DNA of 50,935 nucleotides from an uncultured Rhodospirillales bacterium (GTDB lineage Bacteria; Pseudomonadota; Alphaproteobacteria; Azospirillales; Azospirillaceae), in the NCBI GenBank assembly GCA_903927615.1, contig CAIYNU010000034.1, positions 1 to 50,935 of the forward strand, given 5' to 3'. This document shows, piece after piece, positions 32,180 to 38,509 of the stretch (position 1 is the stretch's first letter; every line of letters starts with the position of its first letter). The translations under genes were made by a program, and so were the position numbers. The notes under the pieces are model-generated. The model saw nothing but the letters and a program-made list of their open reading frames with translations, was not told the DNA's origin and ran no database searches.

Positions 32180-32206
32180 CGCCGGATTCGGTGTTGTGAT
32201 GATGCC

Positions 32207-32244
32207 GGGATCGGGGGGGCTCCCCGATCCCTTTCTGTTTTATT
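32207..32244 (+). terminator. Rho-independent terminator
   Basis: GGGATCGGGG and CCCCGATCCC pair perfectly around a five-base loop, followed by TTTCTGTTTTATT. It ends the Cys-rich small-protein transcript. It also argues that the exporter gene starts after it (ATG 32268). Confidence 0.75.
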
Positions 32245-32267
32245 GCTGGTTTGAGAGCCTGCCCGCC

Positions 32268-33089
32268 ATGCCGGATATGACTTTTTTATTCGTCCTCGCG
32301 CTGGCCCTATTGGGTGCCGGCCTCACGGCCGGCCTGATTGCCGGATTGTTGGGGGTGGGCGGCGGCATTGTTATTGTGCCGGTGCTGTTTCATTTATTTA
32401 CCCTGTTGGGCTTTGATCCCGCCATAACCATGCATCTGGCGGTTGGCACCTCGCTTGCATCCATTGTGCCGACCTCGATTTCAGCGGTTCGCTCCCATTT
32501 GCTCCGCGATGCCGTGGACGTGGTGCTGCTGCGCCGCTGGGCGCCGGCGGTGGTGGTGGGGGTGGTCTGCGGTGCGGCGGTGGCAAGTGCGGTGCAGGGC
32601 GCGGTGCTGACCGCGCTTTTTGGCACCGTCGCGCTAATGGTGGCGCTTTACATGACCTTCGTCCCCGACCGGGTGCGATTGCGCGACTCGTTGCCGGGGC
32701 CCGCGGTGCAGTCGGTGATGGCGGCGGTGATCGGTGCTTTTTCTGCGATGATGGGGATCGGTGGCGGCACCCTGACCGTGCCGTCCCTGGTGTTATGCGA
32801 CTACCCGATTCGGCGCGCGGTCGCCACCTCCTCGGCGGTCGGCATGATCATCGCGGTGCCCGGCGCCATCGGCTTCATGGTCGCGGGCGCCGGCATGCCC
32901 GGGCTGCCGCCATTCTCGCTCGGCTATGTCAGCCTGCTCGGCCTGGTCTTGATTGTACCGACCGCCATGATCACGGCCCCGATCGGCGCCCGTCTGGCCC
33001 ATTCCGTCAATCCCAGAGTGCTGAAGCGGGCCTTTGCCGTCTTTCTGGTCCTGACCTCCGCCCATATGTTTTATAGCCTGATGGGCTGA
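32268..33089 (+). CDS. TauE/SafE family membrane transporter
   Basis: A 273-residue inner-membrane protein with about eight helices in two repeats. Each repeat begins with a glycine-rich motif of the family (GLLGVGGGIVIVPVL near residue 24 and MMGIGGGTLTVPSLVL near residue 161). The family exports or imports sulfite, sulfoacetate or other organosulfonates; the substrate here is unknown. The frame is open from GTG 32196, but those codons overlap a terminator hairpin, so ATG 32268 is preferred. It converges with the leftward ParA-type operon. Confidence 0.9.
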   Translation: MPDMTFLFVLALALLGAGLTAGLIAGLLGVGGGIVIVPVLFHLFTLLGFDPAITMHLAVGTSLASIVPTSISAVRSHLLRDAVDVVLLRRWAPAVVVGVVCGAAVASAVQGAVLTALFGTVALMVALYMTFVPDRVRLRDSLPGPAVQSVMAAVIGAFSAMMGIGGGTLTVPSLVLCDYPIRRAVATSSAVGMIIAVPGAIGFMVAGAGMPGLPPFSLGYVSLLGLVLIVPTAMITAPIGARLAHSVNPRVLKRAFAVFLVLTSAHMFYSLMG

Positions 33090-33128
33090 CGGTGGGGGCG
33101 GTCCGCCGGTTACCACGGCTTACACGGC

Positions 33129-34481
33129 TCACTTCCCCGGCGATAACCCCGGGGTGACGGTCAGTCCGATCAGGCACGGCATTTGCCGGGGCAGGACCGG
33201 GCCATGGGTGAAGTCGGTGTGATCCAGGCAATCGGTCAGTTCGGGACTGGGATTGGCCAGCAGGGTGGCGGCCAGCAGCAGCAGCTTTTGTGCCCGCGGG
33301 TCGGCCTGGCCCAGGATGATGGTGCCGGCATCCCACGGAGAGCGGGTGCCGATGATGCTGGTCACCGCCTTTAGCCGCCAGTCCATGGGGGCCAGGCGGG
33401 CCAGGGTAAAGAACAGGATCGGCCCCAGCATCAGCGACGCCAGTACCAACGCGATGCCGATCCAGACCGGACGGCGCAGGCCGAAGGAGCGTTCGGCGGC
33501 TTCGGCCAGGGTGCTGGCGCGGAGTGCCGCCTGGTGCTCGGTGGTTGCCTCGGCATCGTAAAAGGGCGAGGTCGGATCGGTGACCCAACCCAGCAGTCGG
33601 GCAGCGATGGCCGCCTGCGACGCCACCGGGTCCCAGCCGTCGCCGATCGCCGCGCCAAGCGAACGGCCTTTGACTCGCCCGGCGGCTCGGGACTCCTGAT
33701 CCTGAAACCGTTGGACCAACTCGACGGTCAGGGCAATGAGGCCGCTGGCGGCCTCGGAGCGCGGCCGGTGCAGCAGCACCGGCTTGCCGAGCGCCGCGGC
33801 CGCGGCCAGGTCATGGCTCAAGGGGATCTCGGTGGTGAAAACCTGATCACCGAAACTGCGCCGCACCGTCGCCGCCAGGGTCTGGCTGCCGTGGGTGTCG
33901 CCCTCTCGGCGCTGCCGGGTCAGCAAAATGTCGATGGGCGGCTTGGTGCGGCGGGCACCCGCCGCCAGGGTGGTCAGGCTGTGATCCAACTGGTGCAGGC
34001 TCTGGACGGCATGAAGATCGTAGGGGAGCGGCACCAGTACCCGGTCCGCCGCCATCAGGGCGTTGATGGTGAGCAGATTGAGGGAAGACGGGCAGTCGAC
34101 GACCACATAATCGACCGGAGCCGGCAGGGTCTGGAGCGCGTCGGATAACAGCGTATGGCTGCTGGGGTGGGTGGCAAGTTCGGCTTCCAGCCTGATCAGA
34201 CTCATGCTGGCCGGCGCGAGGACCAGATCGGGAATGCGGGTCTGCCACAAGGCGCCTTCGCTGACCGCACCGTTCAGCAAGAGCTGGTATGCGCCGCGTT
34301 CGCTGAAGTCGGCGGTTCCGAAGCCGACGGTGGCGCTCGCCGTGCCCAGGGGGTCGCAGTCGATCAGCAACACCGCCCGTCCGGCCGCGGCCAGGGCCGT
34401 CGCCAGATTGACGGCGGTCGTGGTCTTGCCGACACCGCCTTTTTGGCTGGCGACGGTGATGATACGGGGCCGGTGGGCCAT
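33129..34481 (-). CDS. ParA/MinD-type ATPase fused to a C-terminal membrane segment
   Basis: A 450-residue protein. Residues 1-260 form a full ParA domain with deviant Walker A KGGVGKTT (14-21), the LLIDCDPLGTAS A' motif (38-49) and VVVDCPSSLN Walker B (127-136). Residues 261-335 are a linker, and a single membrane helix follows (about 339-361, WIGIALVLASLMLGPILFF) with a 90-residue tail. ParA proteins normally bind DNA or membrane reversibly as free dimers, so permanent anchoring is unusual. It is the last gene of a four-gene operon, 32 bases after the four-helix protein. ATG 34481 was chosen; SD GGA is weak. Confidence 0.88.
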   Translation of the reverse strand: MAHRPRIITVASQKGGVGKTTTAVNLATALAAAGRAVLLIDCDPLGTASATVGFGTADFSERGAYQLLLNGAVSEGALWQTRIPDLVLAPASMSLIRLEAELATHPSSHTLLSDALQTLPAPVDYVVVDCPSSLNLLTINALMAADRVLVPLPYDLHAVQSLHQLDHSLTTLAAGARRTKPPIDILLTRQRREGDTHGSQTLAATVRRSFGDQVFTTEIPLSHDLAAAAALGKPVLLHRPRSEAASGLIALTVELVQRFQDQESRAAGRVKGRSLGAAIGDGWDPVASQAAIAARLLGWVTDPTSPFYDAEATTEHQAALRASTLAEAAERSFGLRRPVWIGIALVLASLMLGPILFFTLARLAPMDWRLKAVTSIIGTRSPWDAGTIILGQADPRAQKLLLLAATLLANPSPELTDCLDHTDFTHGPVLPRQMPCLIGLTVTPGLSPGK

Positions 34482-34513
34482 GATGTTGGTCCGTTGCTGA
34501 CCGCTCCGCCGGG

Positions 34514-35365
34514 TCAGGTGCCCGGCGGCCGGAGATTGATTAAAGCCTCGAGGCCGACCCGTTTGCCGGCGCCACCTTGGGTGGTTCCGCCGGCGTCGGC
34601 CGATTCATCGGCCGGGTTGTTGTTCGGATTCAGAGAGGCGCCGAAAAGGGCCGTGCGCAAAGCGTCATTGGGGGCCGGGGGCGGGGGCGCCGGAGCCCTC
34701 CGACCGCTGGTTTCGGTTGCCGCCGGTGCGGCGCGTGGCGCCCGGGTGCGGCGTGGGGTGCCGGCGGCTTTGCCGTCATGGGCGGCCGGCAGCATCGGTC
34801 CCGCCGCCATCGGGTTCGACGCCGGCTGAGGCCAGGTTTCCTGACTGGTCAGGGTTTTGAGGTCGTTGATGTTGAGCCGGCGGTAAAAGATCAGGCGGCA
34901 CCGCCTGGAGAACACGACATAAGGTACGGCCAGGATGACCGGGATGCTGAGGATGGTGAACAGGGGCAGGCCGGCGGACAGGGTGCCGGTCAGCAGTCGT
35001 TCCGACAGGACGAAGGAAATCAGGACCATCAGGCTGGCCGCCACCGCCATGAAGGCGGCAGGAAAGCGGGGGTGCCTGGCAAGTCCCAGACCGGCGGTGA
35101 TCAGCGTCGCCGCCGACACCACGATCTGAATCAGGGAGCGCACCAGTTCGCCGAAGCTCAGGTCCGGGCCGAACAGATCCAGGGAAACCACCGGACCAAT
35201 CAGACCCGTCAGGCCGACCGTCACCAAAATGCCGATCGTTGCCAGCAGGACACCGCTGACCACGGCGTCGGGATGGGCGGCCGCCGTCAGCGAGTCCAGG
35301 GTCACGAAGCGACCGGAGGCCAGGGGGGATTTGAGGGCAGGCAGGGTGACGTGGAGTCGCGACAT
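34514..35365 (-). CDS. Four-helix membrane protein with disordered C-terminal tail
   Basis: A 283-residue protein. Four membrane helices (about residues 36-60, 73-95, 103-123 and 130-150) are followed by YVVFSRRCRLIFYRRL. The last helix plus this basic/aromatic segment recalls DUF2569-type small membrane proteins (weak resemblance). Residues 180-283 are rich in Ala, Pro, Arg and Asn and probably disordered in the cytoplasm. It starts 13 bases after the mitofilin-like gene stop (GAGG upstream of ATG 35365), inside the ParA operon. The function is unknown; it could be the membrane platform for the operon's ATPases. Confidence 0.8.
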   Translation of the reverse strand: MSRLHVTLPALKSPLASGRFVTLDSLTAAAHPDAVVSGVLLATIGILVTVGLTGLIGPVVSLDLFGPDLSFGELVRSLIQIVVSAATLITAGLGLARHPRFPAAFMAVAASLMVLISFVLSERLLTGTLSAGLPLFTILSIPVILAVPYVVFSRRCRLIFYRRLNINDLKTLTSQETWPQPASNPMAAGPMLPAAHDGKAAGTPRRTRAPRAAPAATETSGRRAPAPPPPAPNDALRTALFGASLNPNNNPADESADAGGTTQGGAGKRVGLEALINLRPPGT

Positions 35366-35378
35366 GGGCCGGGCACCT

Positions 35379-36593
35379 CTATTTTTCCGGGGCGACCGTC
35401 GGGTTCGAAAGAATGGCCTGCCGCACGGCGTTCAGGGCGGCCTCGGTCTCGAGCCGAACCCTGGCCGCAGCCAGCCATTGATCGACAGCCTCCGTGGGAT
35501 AAGGGCGGAGGTCCTCCAGTTGGCGCATCGCCGCCGAAAGGTCACCGAGGCGAAGGCTCGCACCAATGCTGGCCAGGACACCGTGAAAGTGTCGGGTCTC
35601 GGTGCTTTCAATCAATCCGAAGCCCGAACCGAGCCAGGCAAACACCCGGCCCACCGGTCCCTTGTCCGACCCGGTGAGCCGCGGCACCATCTGGTCGTAA
35701 CGATCGCGCAGCGCGGACAGGGTTGGGATGCCGGCTGCGGCATAACCCGCCAGACGGGTCATCAGCACCGTGAGCGCGGGATTGCCGCTGGCCGCAGGCG
35801 CCACCCGATCCAATTCGATTGCAAATGGTGAGCCCCGGTCTACCGCGCTTTGCAATTGGTTCATGGCCGCCGCCAGCCGGATCGCCTGCATGGTGGCGCC
35901 GAACCGGTTGTCCACGGTGGCGGTCAGGTCGCCAAGCTGGGTATCGATCTGGACCAGCCGTTTGGCGAATCGGGTCTGGTCGTGCTCAACCTCGTCAAGT
36001 CGGGCAGTCAGCGTCTCGGCGCCGGCGTCTCCCGGCGAACGGGCGGGCAACACCGTCAGCACGACCGCGGCAACGGCCGCGCCCGCCAGAACCAGCGCGG
36101 TGGCGGCGGCGGTGGCCAGGGTCAACCAGCGGATACCCGAGCGTGTCCGCCATCGGGACGGGGAGAGCGGGGCGGTCCCGGCTTCGGGATGTTGTGGATA
36201 GGGGTCGGGTTCCGCGAACTCTTGAGGGCCGTCGTGCTGCTGATCGTGGTCATGGCTATGGTCGGCCAGGGCATGATGCCCGTCAGCATCGGCGTGTCGC
36301 TCGTCCGACGGCGCCTCGGTGGGCAGAACCGCCGTCGCCTCCTCCGTCACCGGACCCATGCCGCCGCTACGGTCGGCGGCATCGGCCATGAGGACATGGG
36401 CGTTCAGGCTGTGGAACAGCACCAGATAATCCGCGTCCGCCAGCACCATCAGACGGGCATCTCTGGACTGGAACAGGCCCCAGCGTTCAGCCAGGGACAG
36501 CGCCAGCAAACCGTCGAGCATGGCCGCGCTTTCGTCGCGGCTCGCCATCCAACTGTCGGTGATCAGGCGATCGAGCGTATCGATCCACGACAT
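35379..36593 (-). CDS. Mitofilin (Mic60)-like membrane protein with His-rich N-terminal extension
   Basis: A 404-residue protein. N-terminal soluble region (1-80), acidic/His-rich linker (about 80-135, including HHALADHSHDHDQQH), one membrane helix (about 154-182), coiled coil (190-235), and a C-terminal domain. The last ~150 residues match the alphaproteobacterial mitofilin domain in pattern: AVDRGSPFAIELDRV, GIPTLSALRDRY, LRLGDLSAAMRQLEDL and QWLAAARVRLETEAAL. Mic60 bends inner membranes and contacts the outer membrane in mitochondria and purple bacteria. The usual bacterial Mic60 is beside heme genes; this copy is not. Its ATG overlaps the preceding ParA stop (TGATG), so the two are coupled. 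Confidence 0.8.
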   Translation of the reverse strand: MSWIDTLDRLITDSWMASRDESAAMLDGLLALSLAERWGLFQSRDARLMVLADADYLVLFHSLNAHVLMADAADRSGGMGPVTEEATAVLPTEAPSDERHADADGHHALADHSHDHDQQHDGPQEFAEPDPYPQHPEAGTAPLSPSRWRTRSGIRWLTLATAAATALVLAGAAVAAVVLTVLPARSPGDAGAETLTARLDEVEHDQTRFAKRLVQIDTQLGDLTATVDNRFGATMQAIRLAAAMNQLQSAVDRGSPFAIELDRVAPAASGNPALTVLMTRLAGYAAAGIPTLSALRDRYDQMVPRLTGSDKGPVGRVFAWLGSGFGLIESTETRHFHGVLASIGASLRLGDLSAAMRQLEDLRPYPTEAVDQWLAAARVRLETEAALNAVRQAILSNPTVAPEK

Positions 36594-37375
36594 CAGGCGG
36601 TCGGCCCGTTACCGGAGGTTTGGGTAATGGGGGCTAATGCTAGCGTAAGTTGTTTTAGCCAAGTCGCATAATCACCAGCCGCCCGGCGAGCCGCCAGAAT
36701 CCCAAGACCAGTAAGCGATGCTACGGTTTTGGCGTCCAGGGTGATGACCTTGGCGGGGGGGAGCTTCAGCCGTTCGAAATCGGTCCAGGCCTCGCTGACG
36801 CAACCGGTCATTTCGACGATGTAAAGGCCGCGGTCCCGCATGGCTTCGATGCGGCGAAATTCGGGAGTGCCGCCATAGGCGTCAAACGCCCCGGCTTTCT
36901 TGTTGAGGACCAGAATGCGCCGGCTGCTTGGGAAGATGCGCTCTACGGTTTCCAACACCTCGAGTCCAGACGTCACCGCCAGCGGCTCGGCGGTGATCGG
37001 AACGTAGACGTCCATGGTCACGCCCGAGTCGTCGAACAGGTCGTTCAGGTTGGATTTTTCCGCCCACGACAAAATCAAGCGGTCCATGTTGGCGCCGACG
37101 TCGACACCGGTATCCCGCTCGATGATTTCTTCGGCAAGCTGATCCCAATAGCTGTAGGCCAGGGACGGATTGGCGCGAATTTCATCAATGGAGGCACCCA
37201 GTTTAAGGGATAAAACCTGATCCGAGCCAATGAATTCCGCCAGTTTGGCCTTATCGTCGGCGTCAATCAGACGCAATGGCCGTCCCGATGCTTCATAAAT
37301 TGCGGCTAACGCCATCATCAGGACGGACTTCCCGACCCCACCTTTGCCGTTGGCGACCCAAACTGTGTGTGGCAT
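36593..37375 (-). CDS. MinD/ParA-type deviant-Walker ATPase
   Basis: A 260-residue soluble P-loop ATPase, first gene of the operon. Deviant Walker A GKGGVGKS (10-17) carries the signature lysine of the ParA/MinD/Mrp class, and LRLIDADD (34-41) is the A' motif. No membrane-targeting amphipathic helix is obvious at the C-terminus, unlike MinD. The rest is not close to well-known ParA, MinD or MipZ sequences and rather recalls plasmid mobilisation-type ParA proteins. ATG 37375 has AAGGAAG upstream and starts right before the P-loop; an upstream ATG at 37405 is less likely. It overlaps the mitofilin-like gene by one base. Confidence 0.88.
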   Translation of the reverse strand: MPHTVWVANGKGGVGKSVLMMALAAIYEASGRPLRLIDADDKAKLAEFIGSDQVLSLKLGASIDEIRANPSLAYSYWDQLAEEIIERDTGVDVGANMDRLILSWAEKSNLNDLFDDSGVTMDVYVPITAEPLAVTSGLEVLETVERIFPSSRRILVLNKKAGAFDAYGGTPEFRRIEAMRDRGLYIVEMTGCVSEAWTDFERLKLPPAKVITLDAKTVASLTGLGILAARRAAGDYATWLKQLTLALAPITQTSGNGPTA

Positions 37376-37828
37376 GGCGCTTCCTTTGCAACCTGTTGTA
37401 GTCAAGCCCTATTGTAGCGTTACCAATACCATTCAATTTGAATGCCGGTAGACCGCCCAATTCGAAACCGAACCTCGCTTTGGTTCACCACCATCACGAC
37501 GGAAACCGACCGGATATGAGGAGAGAGGCGCTTAACGACCTTCGTCACCCGGCTCCCCACGGTGCGGGGAGTCGCGCGGGCAGGCGAAATCCGCTTCACC
37601 GCTGCCGGGGTAATCATACCGGAGGCCTGTGCCGCGAACAATTCGAAAAACCTGGAACGGTTTCCGATCGGGTTGGATCGCCCCCGGGGGTGCGCATGGG
37701 CGCTAAGTTCGGCCCGAAATGCCGTCGGTTGGCGTTCTTTGGGCCGCGGGCATCCTTGCCCGCGTTCCTGGGACAAGTCCTATCCGAGTGCTGATGTCGG
37801 CTTTGGCTTGGCCCGGATCGCTAGCGGT
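37376..37828. other. 453-base gap with a possible gene remnant
   Basis: No confident gene. A minus-strand frame at 37420-37776 (118 codons) has a protein-like second half (FFELFAAQASGMITPAAVKR and a strand-rich end with VSVVMVVNQSEVRFRIG), but its first third looks like antisense or noncoding sequence and there is no ribosome-binding site. It may be a decayed gene end. A GCGGGC-atcctt-GCCCGC hairpin at about 37747-37764 lies within it. Confidence 0.35.
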
Positions 37829-38509
37829 TTAGCCATCAGAGACTTTGTCGGGGATCGCCGCCGCCGGCGTCCTCGCCTCTCTGGTGTCACCCTTGACCGT
37901 GCTCTTCCCCTCGGTCTTGGCCCGTTGCGGCTGGGTTAGCACCGTCACCCGGTTCATGAATTTGTCGGCGGCGCCGTCGGCCAGCAACGGAAAGGCCTCG
38001 GCGCAGGCCTCGAACAGGGGCTCCAGCCAGGGGCGATCGGCCTTGGCGAAGTCGTGCAGAACATAGCCGTGAACCAGTTCCCGGGCGCCCGGGTGACCGA
38101 TGCCGAGTCGGACCCGCCAGTAATCCTGACCAAGATGGGCATCAAGAGACCGCAAGCCGTTATGGCCGCCGGCCCCGCCGCCGCGTTTGACCCGCACGCG
38201 GCCAGGCGGCAGGTCCAGTTCGTCGTGGAACACCACCACCCGATCCGGCGGCAGTTTGAAGAACGAGGCGGCCTCAGCCACCGCCGGCCCGGACAGGTTC
38301 ATGTAATTTTGTGGCTCCACGGCCAGCACTTTTTCGGTACCGCCGCCGGGGAGACTGACCATGCCTTCGGCGGCTCGTGCCTGGAACCGCCGCCGCCACG
38401 GCCCGAAGCCATGGCGGCGGACGATTTCGTCCACCGCCATGAAGCCGATATTGTGGCGATGGCCCGCGTACTCCGCCCCGGGGTTGCCGAGACCGACCAG
38501 CAGTAGCAT
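37829..38509 (-). CDS. pth: Peptidyl-tRNA hydrolase
   Basis: A 226-residue enzyme that releases peptides from stalled peptidyl-tRNA. Family marks: [19 protein letters not shown] with the catalytic His in [38 protein letters not shown] and GGHNGLRSL. The C-terminal ~35 residues (Lys/Thr/Arg-rich) extend past the usual length. It starts 18 bases after the rplY stop, the usual L25-Pth pairing in bacteria. ATG 38509 has AGAGGT upstream. Confidence 0.97.

Follow-up and report, generated by a model that had tools for sequence, protein, structure and literature searches.

A four-gene operon of uncultured Rhodospirillales appears to encode a membrane-bound machine joining two positioning ATPases to a mitofilin relative

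Mitofilin is a protein that shapes mitochondrial inner membranes, and the locus described here raises the question of what a relative of it does in a bacterial operon that also encodes two ATPases of the ParA/MinD positioning class. The locus lies on contig C34 (CAIYNU010000034.1) of the 4.57 Mb genome of an uncultured Rhodospirillales bacterium of the family Azospirillaceae; the whole stretch analysed, 50,935 nucleotides, is referred to as the window. Four minus-strand open reading frames (ORFs) at 33129-37375, labelled P4, P3, P2 and P1 in transcription order, encode a soluble MinD/ParA-like ATPase (P4, 36593-37375, 260 amino acids), a mitofilin-like protein (P3, 35379-36593, 404 amino acids), a membrane protein with a long proline-rich tail (P2, 34514-35365, 283 amino acids) and a Soj/ParA-type ATPase (P1, 33129-34481, 450 amino acids). 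P4 and P3 overlap by one base, P3 and P2 are separated by 13 bases and P2 and P1 by 32 bases; from this spacing alone we infer a single transcript. A preliminary description of the window had the coordinates, spacing and family calls of the four genes right but counted two membrane proteins. Three are present, since P1 is also anchored. Together, the four genes, which a few distantly related water bacteria have in common, appear to specify a membrane-bound, hitherto undescribed machine in which two positioning ATPases are joined to a mitofilin relative.

Homologous sets in other genomes establish that P4 to P1 are genes and not chance ORFs. When P4 was searched against 59 genomes, the window's own included, 31 were matched. 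Besides the own genome, six contain close orthologues with 67-95% identity (the congeners G001-G004, and G011 and G013 of the same family), and the other 24 show remote similarity only. Two genomes in a sample of 337 from alphaproteobacteria reached 1e-30, namely the window's own and one remote relative. A P4 scan of a species collection gave 15 loci, comprising six from uncultured Rhodospirillales/Azospirillaceae (taken as the same six genomes as the close orthologues), six from Chromatiaceae (Thiospirillum jenense, two Thiocystis, Lamprocystis, Halochromatium and Allochromatium warmingii) and three from Thiotrichales metagenome-assembled genomes (MAGs). The gammaproteobacterial P4 proteins share 65-69% identity with that of the window. 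Furthermore, a search of 116 genomes from the Thiocystis minor family found the N-terminal domain of P3 in five, two of which (G422 and G460) were new carriers with all four genes adjacent. The carriers thus number 17 (G000-G004, G011, G013, G368-G375, G422 and G460), from Rhodospirillales, Chromatiaceae and Thiotrichales, and include the cultured purple sulfur bacteria T. minor and A. warmingii.

As carriers were found via P4 or via P3, each search direction must be read alone. Starting from P4, the P3 N-terminal domain was present in all ten P4 genomes searched, unlinked cases included; starting from P3, P4 was present in five of five genomes with that domain. P4 and P3 occur together in 17/17 carriers, and the full four-gene cluster in 13/17 (the window, L055, L057, L058, L061, L062, L064, L065, L066, L067, L068, L098 and L099). 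Rare co-occurrence elsewhere, the outcome that the preliminary description had named as counting against a joint role, is not what these genomes show. Two of the incomplete cases are locus ends: the G002 locus (L056) stops within P2, and that of G013 (L059) stops 559 bases past P2. In Thiospirillum, P4 and P3 lie at separate places (L060 and L094), with neither P2 nor P1 at either. A second P4 without P3, P2 or P1 alongside was observed at L063 6405-7172, in the same Thiotrichales MAG as the complete cluster L064.

The set holds together in changing surroundings. The genes next to the operon in the window, pth, rplY, prs and TauE, were not found in the six alphaproteobacterial stretches searched (L041-L046), and the flanks of three congeners, read by eye, are unlike those in the window, with a shared upstream side in two of the three. 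Both Thiocystis loci are rearranged, with P4-P3 on one strand and P1-P2 facing them on the opposite strand. Identity within the alphaproteobacterial set is 21-61% for P2 and 24-69% for P3. The system is rare yet coherent where present, and transfer of the gene set between classes is probable. Joint function is the simplest explanation for four genes that stay together through relocation, rearrangement and probable cross-class transfer.

The ATPase domain of P1 (residues ~1-265; Pfam AAA_31, 3e-40) is closest to the ParA/Soj structures 8ray, 2bek and 1wcv, with 36-38% identity, and is followed by a conserved linker, a strong hydrophobic segment that forms the predicted membrane helix (residues 343-361) and a tail of ~90 residues. 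A borderline hydrophobic segment at residues 22-40 falls within the ATPase domain. According to PMC12462528, R238 of Myxococcus xanthus ParA is required for non-specific DNA binding. This residue aligns with D224 of P1 by a hand count on the 8ray alignment, with an offset of 19 fixed by D60A, and a multiple alignment agrees. Arg or Lys occupies the position in none of 13 P1 proteins; the chromosomal ParA of the genome has Lys there. ParB families were not matched in P2 or P3 of the operon, and the genome's four ParB genes are located at other sites, next to different ParA genes. The P1 tail of the window resembles DUF6118 at 7e-4, below the cut-off (score 19.5 versus 27), over model positions 135-225 of 245; DUF6118 was matched in the tails of 8/10 P1 proteins (E-values up to 0.1, best 2.4e-7). 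In the open-licence literature searched, the name DUF6118 turned up in one paper. The structure model of P1 past residue 330 has predicted local distance difference test (pLDDT) values of ~37-66. A separate protein of G033 (L083 652-1857) scores above the DUF6118 cut-off and, by eye, has a C-terminal membrane helix and a two-cysteine tail like that of P1; the P1-type tail may be a reusable periplasmic module. At L065 11234-12049, a separate gene is SPOR-like by eye, with no Pfam match at 0.01.

The two ATPases differ in the constancy of their nucleotide-binding motifs. P4 has no hydrophobic segment by hydropathy (Pfam CbiA, 2e-7), and its Walker A motif KGGVGKS is found in all 17 copies read, which come from 16 carriers; in L068, the copy begins downstream of the motif. 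The ParA signature lysine of P1 is kept in seven of 13 proteins, the window's included, and lost in six (L061, L062, L064, L065, L067 and L068), three of which have further changes in the loop. As the P4 motif is invariant and the P1 lysine is lost in six of 13, P4 looks like the constant ATPase. P1 in some lineages looks, by sequence, like a structural, membrane-fixed relative. Several further genes touch on P4. In Lamprocystis and Halochromatium, the cluster is immediately followed by an additional MinD-type ATPase gene (L065 12062-12847 and L066 12297-13082), which perhaps represents a third ATPase of the system. At L047 8113-8934 and 9026-9829 (contig C22), the window's own genome contains a remote P4 relative with 26% identity, preceded by a gene whose product carries a conserved domain at its N-terminus (...TWAEIADLL..., by eye). 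At L050 6838-8445, a remote P4 relative and its partner domain are apparently contained in one long ORF. The two resemble a StbAB-type pair that is chromosomal and has spread within the family. A remote P4 relative also adjoins genes that resemble mobilisation genes by eye.

P3 consists of an N-terminal domain (residues ~1-72), a disordered linker, one hydrophobic segment forming a predicted membrane helix (~164-182) and a C-terminal half with a coiled coil and a mitofilin domain (~240-395; Pfam Mitofilin 1.2e-9, over the cut-off). The N-terminal domain, ~70 residues long, has 14 invariant columns in 11 aligned sequences from both classes. An AlphaFold2 model from ten sequences gives it as a small helical domain (pLDDT 85-91 at residues 1-60) followed by a disordered linker, and gives residues 241-390 pLDDT values of 78-95, with a dip to 53-56 at 311-330. 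The relation to mitofilin proposed in the preliminary description was borne out by comparison with another mitofilin protein of the same genome (L048 4997-6538, 513 amino acids; Pfam 6.6e-11): 28% identity over 201 residues, an E-value of 5e-9 and an hhalign probability of 95.8%. On these sequence grounds, the C-terminal half of P3 is a mitofilin domain homologous to Mic60. The role of the ordinary Mic60 probably falls to the L048 protein, which makes P3 look like a further mitofilin with a specialised function. The Pfam mitofilin model was matched by 5/10 P3 proteins at an E-value of 0.1, and no family match was obtained for the Thiospirillum P3 at 0.01. In structure comparison, the P3 model matched Mic60 7pv1_D with Z 7.0 and a root-mean-square deviation of 2.6 over 55 residues, the Z being tied with helical bundles; the 27% identity of this match is the highest among 50 rows, most of which are helical bundles with Z 5-7. 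Foldseek returned no match for P3 at an E-value of 0.001, and a sequence search of the P3 profile against the PDB found no mitofilin chain.

P2 in the window has four hydrophobic segments by hydropathy (~34-52, 78-96, 103-121 and 133-151), followed by the proline-rich tail, which ends in GKRVGLEALINLRPPGT. No family above cut-off was found in any of four copies scanned. The P2 proteins of two phototrophic Azospirillaceae MAGs, G011 and G013 (L069 8813-10345 and L059 10050-11339), are longer, with an extra N-terminal region that opens like a signal sequence and contains conserved cysteines; it matched no family. The conserved feature of P2 is a motif, [KR]x(0-2)GL[EDQ]xL[IVL], placed at most 45 residues from the C-terminus. 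It was found in 12/15 loci, none of the other segments among 2126 contained it, and it is present in two further loci and the window as well, giving 15/15 complete P2 proteins. Partner proteins of the ParA/MinD class dock through a charged disordered terminal segment, according to PMC10241942. The P2 tail is a conserved linear motif that possibly contacts an ATPase.

What the sequences give directly is the composition of the operon, its co-occurrence, the hydrophobic anchors, the conserved motifs and the absent DNA-binding residue; topology, binding partners and movement belong to the model. The reading we favour, held with middling confidence, is that the operon would encode a ParA/MinD-type positioning module that crosses the membrane and works on it instead of the nucleoid, and this module probably reaches the periplasm. 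P1 would be a ParA without the nucleoid-binding residue of its relatives and with a gained membrane anchor, and from this loss and gain we propose that its matrix is the inner membrane, not DNA. P4 would be the working cytoplasmic ATPase, docking on and leaving a membrane assembly of P1, P2 and P3 with ATP binding and hydrolysis. The membrane-bound P3 and P2 may act as partners in recruiting and regulating P4 or P1, the former by means of its N-terminal domain and the latter by means of its disordered C-terminal tail; this domain and this tail are the likely docking sites. Judging from flanking positive charges and the ATPase domain, the tails of P1 and P3 are predicted to be periplasmic and that of P2 cytoplasmic. 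In the periplasm, where both probably lie, the P3 mitofilin domain and the P1 tail (DUF6118-like or SPOR) would link the assembly to the envelope or wall.

Several observations weigh against this reading. Three other ParA proteins of the genome also have neither Arg nor Lys at the aligned position, so its absence in P1 is not proof of lost DNA binding. P1 may be dispensable, as G011 (L045, L095) has P4-P3-P2 and no P1 on the entire 31 kb contig. The P2 proteins of Chromatiaceae have one hydrophobic segment each in the three proteins checked. The tail count is partly circular, because P2 outside the alphaproteobacteria was recognised by position and tail. The idea that the P2 tail is a ParB-like ParA-activating peptide failed: in local alignment to the N-terminal motif of the genome's chromosomal ParB, ten P2 tails ranked 132-634 of 1508 C-termini, and shuffled tails reached the ParB-motif score in 70-543 of 1000 trials, so that the score is not above chance.

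Could P3 instead bend or scaffold the inner membrane like Mic60, with the ATPases placing the resulting intracytoplasmic membranes? Such shaping, akin to that of the mitochondrial contact site and cristae organizing system (MICOS), is suggested by the homology of its C-terminal half to Mic60. Phototrophs build internal membranes, and many carriers are phototrophs, with the reaction centre (PF00124) found in 9/17. However, eight carriers have no reaction-centre match, including all five genomes of the window's genus, a test that covers photosynthetic membranes; magnetosome genes and other internal membranes were not searched for. The second mitofilin protein of the genome and the match of Pfam mitofilin to just half of the P3 proteins also speak against this explanation, which we regard as unlikely. 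Of the joint membrane-organising machine suggested in the preliminary description, the coherent co-occurrence is borne out, and a link to photosynthetic intracytoplasmic membranes is not supported. Gas vesicles (PF00741) were found in 2/17 carriers and DsrA above cut-off in 11/17 (ten gammaproteobacteria and G013, with none in the window's genus or G011), or 14/17 when weak matches below cut-off are counted. Reaction centres, gas vesicles and DsrA were all rejected as cargo, as none covers the whole carrier set.

No better placed is a wall-anchored landmark at division sites or poles that would position polar machinery, for instance flagella or chemoreceptors. SPOR was matched in 2/10 P1 proteins (taken, from protein lengths, as L062 and L066), and the MinD-type gene behind the L065 and L066 clusters is FlhG-like by eye. 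Yet most P1 proteins, the window's among them, have no SPOR match, and the extra ATPase was observed at just two loci, which leaves this explanation improbable as well. A derivative of conjugation or plasmid transfer, with a TraL/StbB-type P4, a DUF6118 tail on P1 and a set still serving DNA transfer, is a distinctly weaker candidate. P4 has weak NCBIfam matches that include TraL (18.3 bits for the window and 19.4 bits for L062, well short of the curated cut-off of 360), a remote relative lies among the mobilisation-like genes mentioned above, and StbB/TraL proteins have the same deviant Walker A motif (PMC3098194). Nevertheless, inspection by eye revealed neither a relaxase nor a secretion gene next to the clusters read, plasmid relatives of P4 are just 24.5-29.8% identical and occur in 5/72,556 records, and a plasmid search with P1 gave generic ParA, none of the 5000 best-scoring records covering 80% of it. 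Mere coincidence of co-transcribed neighbours, to which the fast divergence of P3 and P2 might point, is very improbable given that the genes are clustered in 13/17 carriers, which belong to two classes, and that the flanks vary and one rearrangement occurs.

P4 starts with ATG, and an in-frame TTG is also present at 37405. A putative pth ORF (37829-38509) lies 453 bases ahead of P4, and a TauE gene assigned by Pfam (32196-33089, plus strand) is convergent with the operon. Scanning 32900-37900 for promoters gave no promoter-like site, and terminator-like sites numbered 3 versus 3.5 expected.

Returning to a positioning module in the membrane, a bolder version is put forward tentatively, with somewhat less confidence: a horizontally spread, self-organising ATPase machine spanning the inner membrane, in which a ParA would have exchanged nucleoid binding for anchorage in the membrane and would act together with a second ATPase and a Mic60-type domain in placing or organising a structure of the envelope. 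What is new within ParA/MinD positioning is the anchoring of a ParA and its mitofilin partner, and the parts of the open-licence literature searched contain no description of a ParA-mitofilin operon or of such an anchored-ParA set. If the proposal is true, an integral-membrane version would be added to ParA/MinD positioning and linked to the family of the crista-organising protein. A conserved module that combines an integral-membrane ParA and two more membrane partners with a mitofilin domain would exemplify a coupling between the envelope and patterning by cytoplasmic ATPases, and would place the mitofilin family in a setting outside MICOS.

How does this set compare with known systems? The ATPase domain of P1 is like that of chromosomal ParA/Soj in ParABS (8ray, 2bek, 1wcv), whereas its membrane helix and tail, the lack of Arg or Lys at the DNA-binding position in 13/13 proteins, the missing ParB-type gene beside it and its membrane-protein partners are unlike ParABS. 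P3 shares a mitofilin domain and one membrane helix with alphaproteobacterial Mic60, but it has an N-terminal domain of its own and sits with two ATPases, and the genome has its 513-residue mitofilin elsewhere. P4 resembles the TraL/StbB/MobD ATPases of conjugative plasmids in size, deviant Walker A motif and remote similarity (PMC3098194); in contrast, a StbA-type DNA-binding gene was not recognised beside P4, and the P4 orthologues form a tight group, at least 65% identical between classes, that goes with P3. Finally, the pairing of an ATPase with a partner that has a charged disordered terminal segment is shared with ParC, McdAB, MinCDE and FlhG (PMC10241942); unlike those systems, the one described here has three anchored components and probable periplasmic domains.

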